Shown piece by piece: positions 21,504 to 28,273 of a DNA stretch of 64,000 nt. Every line of letters starts with the position of its first letter. Position 1 is the first letter of the stretch. Source of the DNA: Roseomonas sp. (GTDB taxonomy: Bacteria > Pseudomonadota > Alphaproteobacteria > Acetobacterales > Acetobacteraceae); the NCBI GenBank assembly GCA_020249925.1, contig JADCER010000001.1, forward strand, positions 1 to 64,000. Direction: 5' to 3'. The notes beneath the pieces are model-generated. The model was not told the origin of the DNA, did not search any database, and saw only the letters and a program-made list of their open reading frames with translations. A program made the position numbers and the translations under genes.

Positions 21504-21577
21504 TGGGGGATAGTTTAGCGGTAGAACTCCCGGCTCTGACCCGGGCAGCCTTGGTTCGAATCCAGGTCCCCCAGCCA
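21504..21577 (+). tRNA. tRNA-Gln (anticodon CTG)
   Basis: A full cloverleaf. The acceptor arm pairs TGGGGGA (21504-21510) with TCCCCCA (21567-21573), with discriminator G at 21574 and an encoded CCA at 21575-21577. The anticodon stem CCCGG/CCGGG closes loop CTCTGAC, giving anticodon CTG. The T arm contains GGTTCGAATCC. The short tight D arm suits tRNA-Gln. It borders the three-gene subtilase/MBL/patatin unit. Confidence 0.97.
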
Positions 21578-21634
21578 GGGGCGCAAGGCCGCGCCCGTTC
21601 CGCTTCCTTTCGCGATAAGTGACCTTTGCGACAC

Positions 21635-22768
21635 TCAATGCCGCTGCGGGCAGCCCTGCGCAGGGGCGGCGGTATAGTTGTTCGTGCTCGCCGGATAGAA
21701 TTTAGTCAGCCGGTCATCCGCCCCAAGCCAGCCCGCCTTCAGCAGCAGGTTCTGTACCGCAAGGTCGAAGCGGCGAAGGCGGGTATCAATCGTCGAGACA
21801 ATCTTCACCTCCGCCAAGGTCAGGCCAGGCGGCGGCGGGGCGCCATCATCCACGCCATCATCAAGCGCCCACATGGCGCCAAGCCTTTCGCGGGACTGAT
21901 AGCTATGAAACAGCATGCGTTTGCGCAGCGCATCGCATTGGCCTGTCGCCACACCCACAACGCTTCCCATTTGCGCAACACCGTCCGGGGGCGAAGGGTT
22001 CGGCGCCCAAGGCTTGCCGCCATCACTCAGGAAGATGGTGCGGCAGCGCTTCCACACGGTCTCAAGCCCCAGATTGTCGTAAACGCCGCCATCGGTCAGC
22101 AGCGCCTTTTGTGTATAGGGCGGCCCCGCGCAAACGGTGGTGGCGCCTGAGCTATTCGGCACAATGCTGCTGAGATCAATTTCAATGGGCGAGAGAAAGG
22201 GTGGGAAGGCCGCTGATGCCGCAACCGCCAGGGCGAGCGGCATATCAAAACCGCGAAACACGCCGATGCGCCGATCAGCAACGTAATCGCGCCGCATGCG
22301 GAACAACCCACCGGTCGTGAGATTGGTGGCATTGAAGACAAAAACCGGATCGTCAGGACCTGCGGGAAGATCGGCGATCCTGGCATTGCCCGTAATGTTT
22401 TGCGTATAGCTGGCCAGCAGGCGCTGGAGTGGTGATTGGAATGGCAAGAGCCAGTTGATCACGCCCGCAACATCCACCGTGTCATCTGCCTGGGCGTAGA
22501 TCTTGGGCAGGAACAGCGCATCCAGATTGGTCGCCACACCTGCCGCATTCCATTGCAATCCCGGCCAGCTGACGGCAAGGGCCGCTGCGGCCATGGAACC
22601 GCCCGAGACGCTGGAGACCCGCCGCAGCCGGCGCAAGAGCCCAAGCCGGTTCATCCGGCAAATGGCCCCCGCGTGATAGAGCATGGCGCGATAGCCGCCG
22701 CCAGACAGGCAAAGCCCTGCAATATCCTCGAACTTCTCGCCATCCAGCAGGTTGATGCTTTGGGACAT
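21635..22768 (-). CDS. Cytoplasmic patatin-like phospholipase
   Basis: A 377-residue patatin-fold acyl hydrolase. The oxyanion glycine run is LCLSGGGYRAMLYHAG (residues 20-34). The nucleophile elbow is VSSVSGGSM, with Ser55. The catalytic Asp lies in LLTDGGVYDNLGLE. It has no signal peptide or membrane helix, so it should act on the inner leaflet. It is the last gene of a minus-strand set, starting 9 bp after the MBL-fold gene stop. Patatins are frequent membrane-damaging effectors of phage-defence systems (for example CapV in CBASS). That role here is inferred only from domain type and context. It is not related closely to the lipoprotein patatin at 27059. Confidence 0.85.
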   Translation of the reverse strand: MSQSINLLDGEKFEDIAGLCLSGGGYRAMLYHAGAICRMNRLGLLRRLRRVSSVSGGSMAAAALAVSWPGLQWNAAGVATNLDALFLPKIYAQADDTVDVAGVINWLLPFQSPLQRLLASYTQNITGNARIADLPAGPDDPVFVFNATNLTTGGLFRMRRDYVADRRIGVFRGFDMPLALAVAASAAFPPFLSPIEIDLSSIVPNSSGATTVCAGPPYTQKALLTDGGVYDNLGLETVWKRCRTIFLSDGGKPWAPNPSPPDGVAQMGSVVGVATGQCDALRKRMLFHSYQSRERLGAMWALDDGVDDGAPPPPGLTLAEVKIVSTIDTRLRRFDLAVQNLLLKAGWLGADDRLTKFYPASTNNYTAAPAQGCPQRH

Positions 22769-22777
22769 TGGACCCTG

Positions 22778-23956
22778 CTACAGCGTGATGATCAGTGATG
22801 GATCGGCGGGTTTCCGAAAACTGAAGGTGACATTGGCCTTCACCTTCGGGTCGCGCTTCAGCAACTTGATCGCATCCTTGAGCGTCGCGCAGGGCTTGCC
22901 GCCAAGGGTGGGCAAGCTGCCATCCCTGCGGGGGTCATAGGCCATGTCGCCATTGGTGAAATGCATGGTGAATTTCCGGCCCGAAGCCGCCTGGGCGGCG
23001 ATGAGTTCAAGCACTGGCGGGTCAGGGTTCTGGTCCTTGCCATTGGCTGAAAAGACATAATGATCCGCGGTCACGGCTTCGATGAAGGCGGCCGGATTAT
23101 TGCCTTCGGCGCCATGATGCGGGACCTTGAGCACATCCACATGCAGCTTGCCCTTTTTGAGACTGCGCGTCGTCTTGAGGCCCGCCAACACATGATCACC
23201 GCGCGCATCACCAGTCAGCAAAACCGTCTTGCCCGCTGATGTGACCAGCATGGCGATGGAAGACAGGTTGGGGATGGCCGTATCCAGCTTTGCCGCCGGC
23301 ACCGCCGCAGTAATGGCAGCTGCACCAGGGCGAAGCTTTTCCTTTTTTTTCTTGAGGTCCGCGAGCCAGGCTTTTCGCAGGGCTTCAAGCGCCGTCTTGT
23401 CCGGCGCCACCACCTTGATCTTTGCCTTGCCGAAGCCCTTCGGCGCATGGCCGGCAAGGATCAGGCCATTATCGGCATTAGGATTGATGTCTGTATTAAC
23501 CCGAATGGCAGCGCCGGTCAGGGATTCACCCTGGCTCACGCTCGCGGCAATGGCACTCGGCGTATTGTTCAAAAGCGCCGCCGCCGCCGCCTGCACAGGT
23601 TCAACCAGCTTGGAAAATGAATTGAACCACAGGACGGGCGCCGAAATCCCCGGTGCTCCCTTGGGGAAGTGCCGGTCACCGCCAAGGCATTTGTAAAGCC
23701 ATTCAATGCCAACAATATGATCGTCATCTATATGGGTGCAGACGACCAGATTGAGTTTTACCGCCCCCTTGGACCCGCTCGCGATCTGTGAGAGGCGGCG
23801 GATCAGCTCATCGCTTGGGCGAAATGTCGTGCCGTCAGGCCGTGCTGCGCTACCCGGACCACCATCCACCAGGATCAGGCTTTGGGCGCCATTCACGCCC
23901 GGCAAACGCAATAGCAGGCAATCCCCATGCCCGGCGTTCAAGGCTTCAAAGATCAT
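22778..23956 (-). CDS. ComEC-like metallo-beta-lactamase-fold hydrolase
   Basis: A 392-residue soluble MBL-fold protein. The metal motif is LVVCTHIDDDHIVGI (His75, Asp77, Asp79, His80 region). Later ligands are in VLLTGDARGDHVLAGL and VLKVPHHGAEGNN, the TGD and HHG patterns of ComEC/Rec2-type MBL domains. There is no membrane part, so it is a stand-alone enzyme, possibly a nuclease or phosphodiesterase. ATG 23956 (MIFEALNAGHGD) is chosen because the domain starts there. It lies between a cytoplasmic subtilase and a patatin. MBL proteins paired with proteases also occur in AVAST type I defence, which is an analogy only. Confidence 0.8.
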   Translation of the reverse strand: MIFEALNAGHGDCLLLRLPGVNGAQSLILVDGGPGSAARPDGTTFRPSDELIRRLSQIASGSKGAVKLNLVVCTHIDDDHIVGIEWLYKCLGGDRHFPKGAPGISAPVLWFNSFSKLVEPVQAAAAALLNNTPSAIAASVSQGESLTGAAIRVNTDINPNADNGLILAGHAPKGFGKAKIKVVAPDKTALEALRKAWLADLKKKKEKLRPGAAAITAAVPAAKLDTAIPNLSSIAMLVTSAGKTVLLTGDARGDHVLAGLKTTRSLKKGKLHVDVLKVPHHGAEGNNPAAFIEAVTADHYVFSANGKDQNPDPPVLELIAAQAASGRKFTMHFTNGDMAYDPRRDGSLPTLGGKPCATLKDAIKLLKRDPKVKANVTFSFRKPADPSLIITL

Positions 23957-24102
23957 TCGCTCTCTCCTCCTGGTCGGGTCGCTGCTGTCGGTACCCGACG
24001 GCAGCCTGCATCGGCCCACCAATTATGGAACTAGTGGTGCGCGGGGGCCGTTTTGGATTGTGAAAGCTTGGCATGAATCGCACCACCAGTATCTTTGCCG
24101 TG

Positions 24103-26106
24103 TCAGACCGATTGCAAGGCGCGCAAGGCATCCACCAGCCCCGCGCCCTGGAAGTCGCGTTCCCGGCCAAGATCGGTTGCCGTTGCCATCAGGATTTCCT
24201 TGATCCGTCGCGGCTGGCCGATGAGTTCCGGGTAGCGGGCCATCAGCAGGGCGGCCACGCCCGAGACATGCGGTGCGGCCATTGAAGTGCCATCCTGAAG
24301 CTCCACCCCGCCGCCCGGCGCGGCTGAGAGGATTTTCTCGCCGGGCGCAACAAGATCGGGCTTGCGCCGTCCATCACCGGTGGGTCCGCGGCTCGAAAAA
24401 TAGCTGACGCCATAGGTATGTGGTTCGCTGCGATGCGTGGCACCAACGGTGATCACTGCCTCGGCATTGCCGGGATCGGTGATGGAAACATCCTGATAGC
24501 CATTGCCAAGGCTTGTATTCGAAATCCCCGCTTCGAAGCCGGCATTACCCGCCGCGGCAACCACAACCGTCCCGTTATTCACCAGCCGCTCCGCTGCCTG
24601 ACAAACAGGTGTACGGCCGCAGGCATGCGCATCCACACGATGCGGCACCGAAACCGAAAGATTGACCCCATGGACAATCGGCTTGCTGCGATCACGGTTC
24701 AGCCAATCCAGATACTCAAGCGCGGCAATGATGGCGAAGCCATCACCCGGATCGGCATCTTCCTCATTCGGTTCAGGAAAAACCTTGAGGTCGAGCAAAT
24801 TGATGTCTGGGCAAATACCCATAAGCCCGTCTTCCGGTTCGCCAGGTGTCGGACCATCGGGCATGTTCCCGGCCAGAATCCCTGCCACATGCGTGCCATG
24901 AAGGCTTTTCGGTGGGTCGGGTTTTGGCTCGCGGATCAGCGGTTCGATCAATGCCCAATCAAGCGGGCGCCCATTTTCGTTGCGACGGCGAATGGAAAGC
25001 AGACTCTCCCTTTCTGCGGCTGAAAGTGATTTGGGGGAAACTTCCTCGGAAAGCAGGCGGCGCAGTTTGGTGAAATCAATGCGATCAAGAACGCGATGCG
25101 CCGGTGGCGTGGCTCTGGTCTTGCCTCGCCTGCCAGCCGTTTTTTGATCAGGGTCCTTCATGAAGGCCGGATGGCTATGGTCAATGCCGCTATCAACAAT
25201 GGCCCAGGTGAGATGCGCTGTCTTGATATTGAACAGAAGCCGCGCTGCATCCGCCTTGACTGTTTTTTGGCCCTGAAATCCGGGCCCAAGCGAAACTGGG
25301 GCGGCGCGGGGATTACGCGCGATGGACCAAATGCGCGGCACCGCTGGTGTCTGTTCCGCCGGTCCCAAGCGCATGCGCAAGGTAGCGGAACTTGCCCAAA
25401 AATCTTCAGGCAGGGCTATTGGGGGAAGGGTAGGGACAGTCTGACGTTGCCTTATGCCCCGCCGCCTTGGTGTTGCGCCAAATTCTGGAAACTCTTCCTG
25501 TTGGGATGGCTCAAGCAACTGAAACAACTGCTCGAGCTCGTCTTGCGCCGCAGGCTCCTTCGACAGCAGCCGTTCAGCCAGGGTGGCAAGCACCAGGAAG
25601 CGTTTGGCAGAAGGCTGTTCGGGCCATTGACCAGGCCGCTTTACGCAATCGCGCAATTCCCTGTTTTCCGTCCGCCACCACCAATCCGTCAGCGGCACCA
25701 GAAGATCAATCAGTTCACGGAACGTTAGGTCTACGGCAACATACTGCTCAGTGGCGGCAATGCGCATCGCCGCAAGTGCCTGGTTGTCGGCCTCTGAGGT
25801 CGTCTGGAGACGTGGTACGCCGGGGGCTAGCCCCAAGACGCGCCGACGCAAAGCTTCCGCGACGAAAGCAGCGCTGCCCGGCGCTTCATTATCCCGCCCG
25901 CGTGTGAGTTTTGGCGTGAGAAGAAGGGAAACGCGCGGTTGCGGAACCGAAGCCTTGGGGCGTTCCGCCAAGCGCCGCTGGCGCTCTTGCCCAAGCAGCA
26001 GAAAGCGTTCCCAGACATCCGCTTGAATGGGGTTATCCAGGGTGAAGCGACGCTGGTGATCGGTCTCGTAAAGCAGCCGGTGGATCTTTTCGCGATCAAG
26101 CTTCAT
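24103..26106 (-). CDS. Cytoplasmic S8 (subtilisin-like) serine peptidase with novel N-terminal region
   Basis: A 667-residue protein. The subtilase domain fills about 295-667 with a complete triad: Asp305 (AIVDSGIDHSHPAF), His403 (LHGTHVAGILAGN) and Ser608 (DGTSMAAPHVSGVAALL). Asn of the oxyanion hole is in VVAAAGNAGFEAG. No signal peptide is present. Residues 1-290 are helical and charged, unlike a subtilisin propeptide, and I do not recognise them; they may be a sensor or inhibitory domain. It is the first gene of the three-gene set, with 146 bp before the MBL gene. A cytoplasmic subtilase beside MBL and patatin genes suggests a regulated proteolytic switch; this is inference. Confidence 0.88.
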   Translation of the reverse strand: MKLDREKIHRLLYETDHQRRFTLDNPIQADVWERFLLLGQERQRRLAERPKASVPQPRVSLLLTPKLTRGRDNEAPGSAAFVAEALRRRVLGLAPGVPRLQTTSEADNQALAAMRIAATEQYVAVDLTFRELIDLLVPLTDWWWRTENRELRDCVKRPGQWPEQPSAKRFLVLATLAERLLSKEPAAQDELEQLFQLLEPSQQEEFPEFGATPRRRGIRQRQTVPTLPPIALPEDFWASSATLRMRLGPAEQTPAVPRIWSIARNPRAAPVSLGPGFQGQKTVKADAARLLFNIKTAHLTWAIVDSGIDHSHPAFMKDPDQKTAGRRGKTRATPPAHRVLDRIDFTKLRRLLSEEVSPKSLSAAERESLLSIRRRNENGRPLDWALIEPLIREPKPDPPKSLHGTHVAGILAGNMPDGPTPGEPEDGLMGICPDINLLDLKVFPEPNEEDADPGDGFAIIAALEYLDWLNRDRSKPIVHGVNLSVSVPHRVDAHACGRTPVCQAAERLVNNGTVVVAAAGNAGFEAGISNTSLGNGYQDVSITDPGNAEAVITVGATHRSEPHTYGVSYFSSRGPTGDGRRKPDLVAPGEKILSAAPGGGVELQDGTSMAAPHVSGVAALLMARYPELIGQPRRIKEILMATATDLGRERDFQGAGLVDALRALQSV

Positions 26107-26353
26107 GGCGCCCCTGCCCAACCCTCACCCTGTTCCTTTGGGTAAACGGAAGCTTGCCGCTAAGCCTGACCCAAGGCAACCACAATCTTGGCCATTGGCT
26201 TTCCTGCCGTCTTGGTGGGTGATTATGGCGCCGCCGCATGAAGGTGGCGAAACGCCTGACGCCTGGGTCGCGGGGCATGATGCCATTCTTGACCTGCCGC
26301 AAGAATAGGCGCCGGCTTGTCATCTAAACACGCCTTCAAGGAGGACCCAGCCC

Positions 26354-27058: not shown

Positions 27059-28273
27059 TCAATATGGGATATCCCGCATCCAGGGAAAGCCAACCCGCGC
27101 CATCTCGAAGGCATGGGCGTAGAGCTTGCGCATATAGGCCTGGTCGAAGGGCTCCCGCGGTTCATCCTGGAAATCGGGGCCGATCACGGCCAGGTTGAAA
27201 TCCACCTTGTCTTCCCGCGTCAGGTTGCGGATGCGCGCCACGTCATTGAAACCAGCTGAAGCGATCATGCTGGCGATGGCGCGTTCCACGATCTTGAAGG
27301 TGCGCCGTTCGGTCTTGGTGGGGTTTGGGGTGATGCGCCCATTGCGAATGACAAAGGCGCGTGCCGAGCGAACGGCGTCGCCCCCGCGGATATTGGCGCG
27401 CCTTTCGCTGGTTACGCTGCGCGGATAGAGGAATAGCTGCGTAAAGGCGCCGCCATCCACATGCATTTCCTGATAGGTTTTGCCGTCCAGTGTCACTTCC
27501 ACCATCACTGGTGGGAAGGCGCCGGGAATGGCGGCCGAGGCCAGTAGCAGCCGGCGCACCAGATCAAGTGCGCGTGGATGGCCGCTGGCCGCGATGGCGC
27601 CGATATTCCAGGCCACCGGCAGCTGGGCATCCATATCGGAAGTACCGATCAGCAATAGCCGGCCCTGCTCATAGGCCTCACCGATTTCGGCCAACATCGT
27701 GTCGTTCAAATAGCGGGAAATGGTGCGAAACAGCGGTGCGTTATCGGCCAGCGCATCGTCAAACAGCGCGGCATTCAGCAAATAGCGCGGTTCCAGCACA
27801 TCCCTGGGCGTAATATCCGTGTAAACAGACTTAAGCGCGGGATCGTAATGGGACCCGAGAAAGGCGAAGGGGGCGGTCAACGCGCCGGTGGAAACCCCGG
27901 TCACCAGGCCGAAGCTTGGCCGATCTCCGGCCTCGGTCCAGCCATTCAGCAAGCCGGCACCGAAGGCGCCATTCTCGCCCCCGCCGGAAATCGCCAGCAT
28001 TTCAATGCGCGGTTCGGCCCTGCGGGGCGTGGGGCCACGATGGCGCCGGGCACGCTCCAGCGCCGAAAAGGCCTCGGCCCGGAAAGCATCGCCATCCCAG
28101 GGGAAGAAGAAACGCTCATTCGGCAGGCCCAGCACCTTGGCGTCCCGCGTGCGCGCGAAAGGCACGGCCGGGCCGCGAACCGGGGTGGCGCAGGCGGCAA
28201 GCCCAAGCCCGGCTGCCCCGAATAGGCCAGCCCGCCGGGTGAATTTCTGACCGCTTTCGGGTGCCCACCCCAT
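27059..28273 (-). CDS. Patatin-like phospholipase lipoprotein
   Basis: A 404-residue patatin-fold protein with an exported N-terminus: FTRRAGLFGAAGLGLAAC combines a twin arginine and a lipobox (Cys28). The glycine loop is MLAISGGGENGAFGAGLLNG, the nucleophile Ser is in GLVTGVSTGALTAPFA (GxSxG), and the catalytic Asp is in MHVDGGAFTQLF. It should work in the periplasm on phospholipid. It stands alone, divergent from ffh, and convergent with the CBS-BON gene (12-bp gap). Its export signal sets it apart from the cytoplasmic patatin at 21635. Confidence 0.85.
   Translation of the reverse strand: MGWAPESGQKFTRRAGLFGAAGLGLAACATPVRGPAVPFARTRDAKVLGLPNERFFFPWDGDAFRAEAFSALERARRHRGPTPRRAEPRIEMLAISGGGENGAFGAGLLNGWTEAGDRPSFGLVTGVSTGALTAPFAFLGSHYDPALKSVYTDITPRDVLEPRYLLNAALFDDALADNAPLFRTISRYLNDTMLAEIGEAYEQGRLLLIGTSDMDAQLPVAWNIGAIAASGHPRALDLVRRLLLASAAIPGAFPPVMVEVTLDGKTYQEMHVDGGAFTQLFLYPRSVTSERRANIRGGDAVRSARAFVIRNGRITPNPTKTERRTFKIVERAIASMIASAGFNDVARIRNLTREDKVDFNLAVIGPDFQDEPREPFDQAYMRKLYAHAFEMARVGFPWMRDIPY

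Follow-up and report, generated by a model that had tools for sequence, protein, structure and literature searches.

A subtilase, a metallo-beta-lactamase-fold protein and a patatin encoded beside tRNA-Gln in Roseomonas sp.: a candidate proteolytically triggered defence unit

The genome of Roseomonas sp. (assembly GCA_020249925.1) carries, next to a tRNA-Gln gene, a trio of minus-strand genes coding for a subtilase, a protein with a metallo-beta-lactamase (MBL) fold and a patatin-like phospholipase. The trio was analyzed in a window of 64,000 nucleotides (contig JADCER010000001.1, positions 1 to 64,000), to which coordinates refer unless they follow the handle of another locus (L). The features of the locus are the following.

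21504..21577, plus strand: tRNA-Gln (ctg), the left boundary of the inserted stretch.
21578..26281, no strand assigned: inserted stretch, 4,704 bp in the window against 47 bp in the sister genome G033 (blastn); the relative G034 has the trio.
21635..22768, minus strand: patatin-like phospholipase, 377 residues, Pfam PF01734 Patatin (E 6.5e-18), catalytic S55/D226.
22778..23956, minus strand: MBL-fold protein, a candidate gated pro-nuclease, 392 residues, ATG at 23956, Pfam Lactamase_B (E 3.4e-5).
23270..23716, minus strand: enlarged stretch of the MBL protein from HxDxDH to NLSS, 149 residues, with candidate gating insertions.
23519-23542, minus strand: conserved SxxQGxxL motif of the MBL protein, present in 17/17 subtilase-type MBLs.
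24103..26106, minus strand: subtilase (S8), 667 residues, Pfam PF00082 Peptidase_S8 at residues 302-655 (E 1.6e-41).
25207..26106, minus strand: N-terminal region of the subtilase, residues 1-300, without a Pfam match, a candidate sensor or regulatory part.

The gaps between the genes are short (146 bp between subtilase and MBL, 9 bp between MBL and patatin). The catalytic triad of the subtilase (D305/H403/S608) is invariant across 6/6 alignment rows, the MBL protein has the metal motifs THIDDDH and PHHG, and S55 and D226 (DGG) of the patatin are identical across 31/31 alignment rows. An earlier note on this DNA had described three tightly spaced genes with these motifs beside tRNA-Gln, a subtilase devoid of a signal peptide and an N-terminal region of unknown nature. 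The positions, protein families and motifs were confirmed. On the Kyte-Doolittle scale, no segment of the three window proteins exceeds the hydrophobicity threshold customary for membrane segments, and the subtilase is predicted to be cytoplasmic. The N-terminal region indeed spans about 300 residues without a Pfam family. When its own sequence was searched against 385 genomes of the class, only the region itself and one marginal match with an internal stop were retrieved. A profile of the region, run on the loci fetched, found only the window-type subtilase subfamily, with marginal matches in L148 and L149 (E 0.005-0.01). The region is the natural candidate for sensing.

The best PADLOC profiles of the MBL protein are LmuA (E 3.7e-49), RTasMBL (1.1e-29) and Avs1a (1.5e-26), while it stays far under the NCBIfam cut-offs (Avs1a, 115 bits against 420; 6A-MBL, NF058524, 30.2 bits against 220). 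In a tree of 32 MBLs, 18 subtilase-linked sequences, including those of two other subtilase types, form one group (support 92/90, not starred). This group joins (92/87) a pair that consists of the AVAST-1 MBL, from a locus verified by its Avs1b partner, and a caspase-linked MBL (96/80 for the pair). The ComEC outgroup of this tree is a very long branch. HxDxDH, GDA and HHG are present in 17/17 subtilase-type MBLs. The stretch from HxDxDH to NLSS has a length of 148-185 residues in 15 window-type rows, 155 and 208 in the two other subtilase types, 146 in the caspase-linked MBL, 190 in the Avs1 protein and 187-251 in three measurable metalloprotease-linked rows. It has 54 residues in Escherichia coli YcaI (ComEC-family), the sole ungated yardstick used. 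The NLSS end motif was not found in nine MBL rows. PDB sequence searches with the MBL, the patatin and a metalloprotease from related loci (see below) gave weak matches at best.

Protease activation of MBL pro-nucleases is already established for trypsin-type and caspase partners, which cut the MBL protein open, and such loci give phage defence, as described in the main text of PMC12799240. According to the same text (Tuck et al. 2025, PMC12799240), MBL homologues also accompany proteases of other diverse families. The words subtilase, subtilisin, patatin, lipase and phospholipase do not occur in that main text, although subtilase-linked MBLs may already be marked in its tree. Judged from its sequence, the window MBL is a candidate member of these "gated" pro-nucleases that are opened by partner proteases.

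The subtilase profile matched 4 of 398 genomes of the phylum (that of the window included) and 14 of 248 genomes of another alphaproteobacterial family. The subtilase is full-length in 11 of these 14, and in the remaining three the match is confined to the S8 domain; the neighbourhood analysis covered the 14 genomes with the exception of G887. An MBL gene adjoins the full-length subtilase in 11/11 family genomes, nine of them have an intact patatin gene directly upstream, and two have a damaged one. G725 has the gene order subtilase-MBL-patatin, as in the window; altogether the trio occurs in two gene orders, on chromosomes as well as plasmids of Alphaproteobacteria. Across the 248 genomes, patatin occurs in 15, MBL in 15 and both in 10 (hypergeometric P about 4e-11, with the genomes treated as independent though they are related). 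Patatin and MBL are neighbours in all 10, one of the patatins being frame-shifted. Within the subtilase sets, the distance matrices of the three genes correlate at 0.92-0.95, and those of subtilase and MBL at 0.93 (n=16, P 0.0001); shared species history is included in these values.

Among plasmid records, the MBL matched 69, the patatin 27 and the subtilase 170, only 3 of the 170 covering 80% of the query. Adjoining subtilase and MBL genes were found in plasmid records of Rhizobium, Sinorhizobium, Methylorubrum, Paroceanicella and the actinobacterium Miltoncostaea. The third gene beside this pair varies: it is a patatin in L031 and L032, a DUF2235 gene in L028 and an FRG-domain gene in L027 and L030, the FRG protein of L030 matching a PADLOC candidate-defence profile at 6e-66. 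Two further subtilase types are paired with an MBL in L183 (6696-10158; beside GAF/PAS and CHAT-domain genes) and L186 (4973-8327). In two of the three family genomes matched by the S8 domain only, subtilases with another N-terminus are encoded in L148 (5278-6621) and L149 (5039-6352), followed by alpha/beta-hydrolase-like proteins (GHSFG) in place of the MBL, and L149 has an FRG-type gene in addition.

In the viral collection IMG/VR, the subtilase profile matched by the S8 domain only among the best 80 of 325 stretches. No MBL, patatin or metalloprotease of the trio kind was found in these 80, for which an open reading frame caller tuned to GC-rich DNA recovered the S8 frame in only 30. The MBL profile retrieved two loci, one of which is AVAST type I, the patatin profile also retrieved two, and a single MBL query none. 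One contig from the viral collection (L204, 796-2631) codes for a patatin of the window subfamily behind an N-terminal region that is amidase-like by eye.

Within the genus, the trio sits on an insertion. The match of the sister genome G033 to the window stops at 21577, the last base of tRNA-Gln, and restarts at 26282. On the left side, the 265 bp that precede the break are 97.4% identical to the window (93.7% in the ppx gene further left), and on the right side identity is 97.3% over 819 bp. The same CBS-domain gene as in the window follows tRNA-Gln within about 135 bp in G007, G009 and G029 too, and yet other genes follow it in many other members of the genus (the table of tRNA-Gln neighbourhoods comprises 30 of the 34 genomes that had a match). 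In G025, a large serine recombinase (L252, 254-1873) abuts the same tRNA-Gln, with other genes behind it, and in G031 a frame of 298 residues sits between tRNA-Gln and the CBS gene. The site thus accepts other inserts.

Subtilase and MBL are present in 2 of 35 genomes of the genus (that of the window and 34 relatives), and the same applies to the whole set. Patatin was found in four of the 35: the genome of the window, G034, G011 (40% identity) and, as a remnant, G026. When genome contigs were scanned for the subtilase, a single near-identical copy turned up, together with two matches to the S8 domain. The trio proteins of G034 are 97-100% identical to those of the window, and the ratio of nonsynonymous to synonymous substitution rates (dN/dS) is 0.21, 0.16 and 0.05 for the three genes, with a small dS. 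Such low values are in keeping with working proteins of any kind. The G026 contig (L137, 5,047 bases) has the 3'-end remnant of the patatin together with rearranged pieces of flanking genes at the contig end, which is due either to decay or to an assembly fault. A second patatin-like gene is encoded in the window at 27059-28273, in another context and 1 kb beyond the subtilase. This gene also occurs in G033 and other members of the genus that lack the trio.

The genes around the window trio are ordinary ones (IMPDH, FtsJ-type methyltransferase, Ppx/GppA, CBS, SRP54, RimM). Defence-type neighbours are present in some relatives, not in all. L198 has HamA (7.5e-146) and a CBASS cyclase (3.1e-148) beside the set, and L029 has a Pycsar cyclase, an E2-domain gene and a TIR gene upstream of subtilase and MBL. 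By annotation, the near copies L199 and L213 have DUF1837 and DEAD/DEAH helicase genes, and there is a CBASS cyclase near L195. BrxA and BrxB are encoded near L194.

Several further statements of the earlier note can be judged from these data. That the genes form a conserved, co-occurring unit and are patchy between close strains was borne out by their joint presence and adjacency in the family and by the empty site in G033. The proposed pairing of MBL and protease as in AVAST type I agrees with the LmuA/Avs1a profile kinship and the tree, and the patatin as a likely effector was retained. The ideas that the subtilase senses a trigger and frees the patatin are carried over below as hypotheses. 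The expected proximity to defence genes did not hold for the window, where the trio lies among housekeeping genes. The trio as the unit stood in part: the three genes recur together, but subtilase and MBL are the steadier core and the patatin is exchangeable. The note had also allowed that the trio might rarely co-occur, might be universal or might already have a name; none of this was found (patatin and MBL together in 10 of 248 genomes, the whole set in 2 of 35 in the genus, no naming paper). The literature search for such a paper covered open-access sources, with bioRxiv preprints and most subscription papers outside and no term for the metalloprotease variant.

Known systems share parts of this locus. 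The closest are the gated pairs of Hachiman (HamMAB), AVAST type I, Lamassu and DRT, as far as the main text of PMC12799240 describes them. Common to these and the window are an MBL with a serine protease, a long extra stretch between the metal motifs and the occurrence of related loci near defence genes. The Avs1a/LmuA-related MBL of the window has intact metal motifs, and its protease gene adjoins it (11/11 in the family) and co-evolves with it by the distance correlation given above, which includes shared species history. However, the window protease is a stand-alone subtilase with its own N-terminal region, whereas that of the described systems is a trypsin domain fused to HamA, Avs1b or LmuA. 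In addition, the window MBL is encoded downstream of the protease rather than upstream, a patatin is added, and no helicase, STAND ATPase or SMC gene was found in the unit. Canu (caspase-nuclease), as outlined in the same text, also has a stand-alone protease upstream of the MBL, and the caspase-linked MBL of the tree is one of the sequences closest to the subtilase group. It differs by having a caspase where the window has a subtilase (Peptidase_S8), and no CanB-like gene lies between the window genes. The 6A-MBL kind (NF058524) shares the MBL and, in L190 and L194, the patatin subfamily of the window, but it has an E2/E1/JAB fusion in place of a protease.

Three more systems bear a partial likeness. 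In CBASS, patatins (CapV/CapE) serve as effectors, and the relative L140 weakly matches a PADLOC phospholipase effector (E 0.0028). The unit has no CD-NTase, however, and the window patatin has no PADLOC match at E 0.1. IetAS uses a subtilase in anti-phage defence, but no AAA ATPase partner was seen here. In fungi, the HET-Q2 subtilisin acts on the HET-Q1 gasdermin, so that a subtilisin-type protease fires a membrane-damaging effector. The likeness of this pair to the trio is one of idea.

Membership in six systems was considered and rejected. For AVAST type I, the Avs1a score is far below its cut-off and no STAND protein is encoded in the trio or in the nine window genes that were scanned around it. 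In the same set of genes, the LmuA-like MBL is not accompanied by an SMC gene (Lamassu), E1/E2/JAB genes are missing beside a subthreshold NF058524 score (6A-MBL), there is no cyclase (CBASS), and there is no AAA partner for a protein that reaches 15.7 bits with IetS against a cut-off of 900 and 20 bits with the other IetS profile. Canu does not apply, as the protease is a Peptidase_S8 and not a caspase.

We consider it probable that the trio is an accessory, immune-type unit, a proteolytically triggered abortive defence in which the subtilase opens the MBL pro-nuclease and the patatin is a second arm. The cytoplasmic subtilase would rest in an inactive state, to be released from it when the N-terminal region senses a trigger, probably a signal of infection. 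Once activated, it would cut the long extra stretch near the MBL active site. The cut pro-nuclease would become a DNase that destroys the DNA of the infected cell, and the patatin would degrade membrane lipids. With chromosome and membrane attacked together, the cell would be killed or stalled. The cutting of the window MBL by the subtilase, the licensing of the patatin and phages as the trigger are inferences. In favour of the reading speak the kinship of the MBL with gated nucleases and its enlarged stretch, the mechanism published for trypsin and caspase partners, the adjacency of MBL and subtilase and of MBL and patatin in relatives, the exchange of the patatin between protease-MBL sets, the subtilase-metalloprotease fusion in the genus, the defence genes beside some relatives, the insertion at tRNA-Gln with its empty site in G033, and decay by parts elsewhere.

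A number of observations weigh against this reading. The window locus is outside any defence island, none of the nine flanking genes scanned being a defence gene. The SxxQGxxL motif pinpoints no cut site, since the trypsin-linked L118 shares it and both the two other subtilase types and the caspase-linked MBL lack it. The AlphaFold model of the MBL, computed from a three-row alignment, is poor (mean predicted local distance difference test, pLDDT, 48.9; residues 106-234 all below 50). A fold search with it gave no match at E 0.001 or better, and the patatin model has a mean pLDDT of 31.4. G715 codes for a full-length subtilase without an MBL within 20 kb, and an intact patatin persists in G956 without protease or MBL. 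No MBL was found in 5 of 20 patatin plasmid loci (L196, L197, L208, L209, L212), L200 is loose (a split MBL lies 5.5 kb from the patatin) and L211 is broken throughout. The records L199/L213 and L202/L210 are pairs of near copies. Finally, most trios in the family of G594 share a single chromosomal site, so that their gain may be old.

The patatin is less constant than the pair. In the family of 248 genomes, most trios occupy one chromosomal site, next to genes for a TonB-dependent receptor or for DUF1214/DUF1254 proteins. BLAST places 9 of 11 there, the reference itself being counted, gene sizes alone place L143, and L138 has another position. Parts of the set are found at this shared site: only a truncated MBL in G937, only a broken MBL in G966 and only an intact patatin in G956. 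Subtilase and MBL are intact beside a damaged patatin in G594 (large internal deletion) and G895 (frame-shift). The subtilase-MBL pair can thus outlast its patatin, and in one case the patatin was kept although the pair is missing. Decay by parts fits a costly, dispensable function.

On plasmids, 20 of the 27 patatin-positive records were examined, H42 (same length and position as H41) and H62-H67 (partial matches like H61) being left out. In 15 of these 20 loci, no more than 7 kb separate the patatin from an MBL. The partners in the 15 are a subtilase in two, a metalloprotease-type protein in nine, a caspase-family protein in two (near copies) and an E2/E1/JAB fusion in one. No partner was recognised in the remaining one (in L203, a transposase lies between patatin and MBL). 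The two caspase plasmids are near-identical and have an operon of caspase (C14, 1.6e-11), an unknown gene and MBL, divergent beside a patatin of the window kind. In G1002, a patatin follows a 6A-MBL (NF058524, 5.9e-128) and an E2/ThiF/JAB fusion. Patatins of the window subfamily are also downstream in the 6A-MBL-kind loci L190 (6504-7763) and L194 (6938-8158), the latter assigned to this kind by its E2/ThiF/JAB gene and not by NF058524. The patatin subfamily of the window thus accompanies at least three other MBL-containing sets, and the class is wider than the trio.

Of the metalloprotease-type proteins looked at, 12 of 13 have HETTH and a downstream HEA[FI]AD, and L200 has HEFTH. Those scanned have no confident Pfam family, L200 matching thermolysin weakly (PF01447, 0.0019). 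HExxH proteins were seen beside MBL and patatin in L189, L034, L187, L195, L198, L199, L200, L201, L207, L211 and L213; L030 has an LCAT-type lipase instead. The metalloprotease form also occurs on chromosomes (G822, G971). G011, from the genus of the window, codes for a fusion of 1,177 residues (L192, 10267-13800) with a subtilase domain at 159-433 (4.2e-18) and HETTH near residue 751. The gene is flanked by a patatin before it and an MBL directly after it.

In a tree of 31 patatins, the partner label (subtilase, metalloprotease, caspase, 6A) changes six times, the minimum possible being three, and the sister of the window patatin is metalloprotease-partnered (100/99). When the subtilase-partnered patatins (with L188) or the metalloprotease-partnered ones were constrained to one clade, the approximately unbiased test rejected this (p-AU 6e-37 and 1e-45, for groups picked after the tree was seen). 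In the MBL tree, by contrast, the label changes seven times for eight groups, which is the minimum possible. Each MBL type is therefore tied to one class of protease, and patatins change from class to class. Subtilase and MBL are the more constant core, and the patatin is exchangeable.

This mobility suggests a first alternative, in which defence is the work of subtilase and MBL, and the patatin is an independent effector that has its own trigger, adds membrane damage and merely travels along, not licensed by the protease. The frequent change of partner agrees with it, as do the broken patatins beside an intact pair, the solitary one in G956 and the patatins in 6A-MBL loci, none of which showed a recognisable protease of these classes. 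On the other hand, 12 of 13 intact trios, whatever their gene order, have the patatin at most 164 bp from subtilase or MBL (the exception is L031, with an intervening gene for a membrane protein). The 15 patatin genomes of the family include 13 whose patatin cluster also contains an MBL, and in a 14th (G952, a weak patatin) one lies 2.3 kb off. We regard a merely travelling patatin as unlikely, though it is the strongest of the alternatives.

The set might also be a cassette for programmed lysis, plasmid competition or a bacteriocin-like purpose, where protease, lipase and nuclease dismantle the cell, aided in some loci by cell-wall enzymes and a membrane protein. The latter has no Pfam match (the L031 copy was scanned) and occurs near sets of patatin, protease and MBL in L031 (8236-9162), L034 (9188-10027), L030, L187, L211, L027 and the L192 region. 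Peptidoglycan-binding or lysozyme genes are sometimes found near the sets that bear it, including those of some plasmid relatives. By prediction, 57 of the 69 MBL records and 20 of the 27 patatin records are conjugative, which would also suit such a cassette. It appears improbable nonetheless: the three genes directly follow one another in the window and in 11 loci of the family, these loci yielded no copy of the membrane protein, the window proteins have no hydrophobic segment, and several relatives adjoin known anti-phage genes.

An ordinary cellular function in lipid or protein turnover with a chance neighbourhood is very hard to credit, even though one chromosomal position is common to several genera of the family and the dN/dS of the two near-identical copies fits any working protein, since 33 of the 35 genomes of the genus lack the whole set, 237 of the 248 in the family lack the full-length subtilase, the subtilase-MBL pair recurs in alphaproteobacterial and actinobacterial replicons, and decay proceeds by parts; a housekeeping locus was rejected on account of the patchiness in genus and family.

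A triggered abortive defence thus remains the favoured interpretation of the window trio. It is tempting to generalize it. Tentatively, and with more doubt than for the trio itself, we propose a death module of protease, MBL pro-nuclease and phospholipase, in which the protease is interchangeable (subtilase, thermolysin-like HExxH metalloprotease, caspase or a ubiquitin-type E1/E2/JAB machinery) and one patatin subfamily is passed around, one activation degrading both DNA and membrane. As part of this tentative proposal, the subtilase-metalloprotease fusion of G011 would be a natural bridge between two of the protease variants.

If the trio functions as proposed, the subtilase, and in relatives the metalloprotease, would join trypsin and caspase as partners of gated MBL nucleases. 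The unit also adds a recurring second effector, the phospholipase, of which the main text of PMC12799240 makes no mention. It is compact, with three genes only, and would represent a bacterial switch, operated by proteolysis, that sets off two killing enzymes together and in which the proteases may be exchanged for one another.

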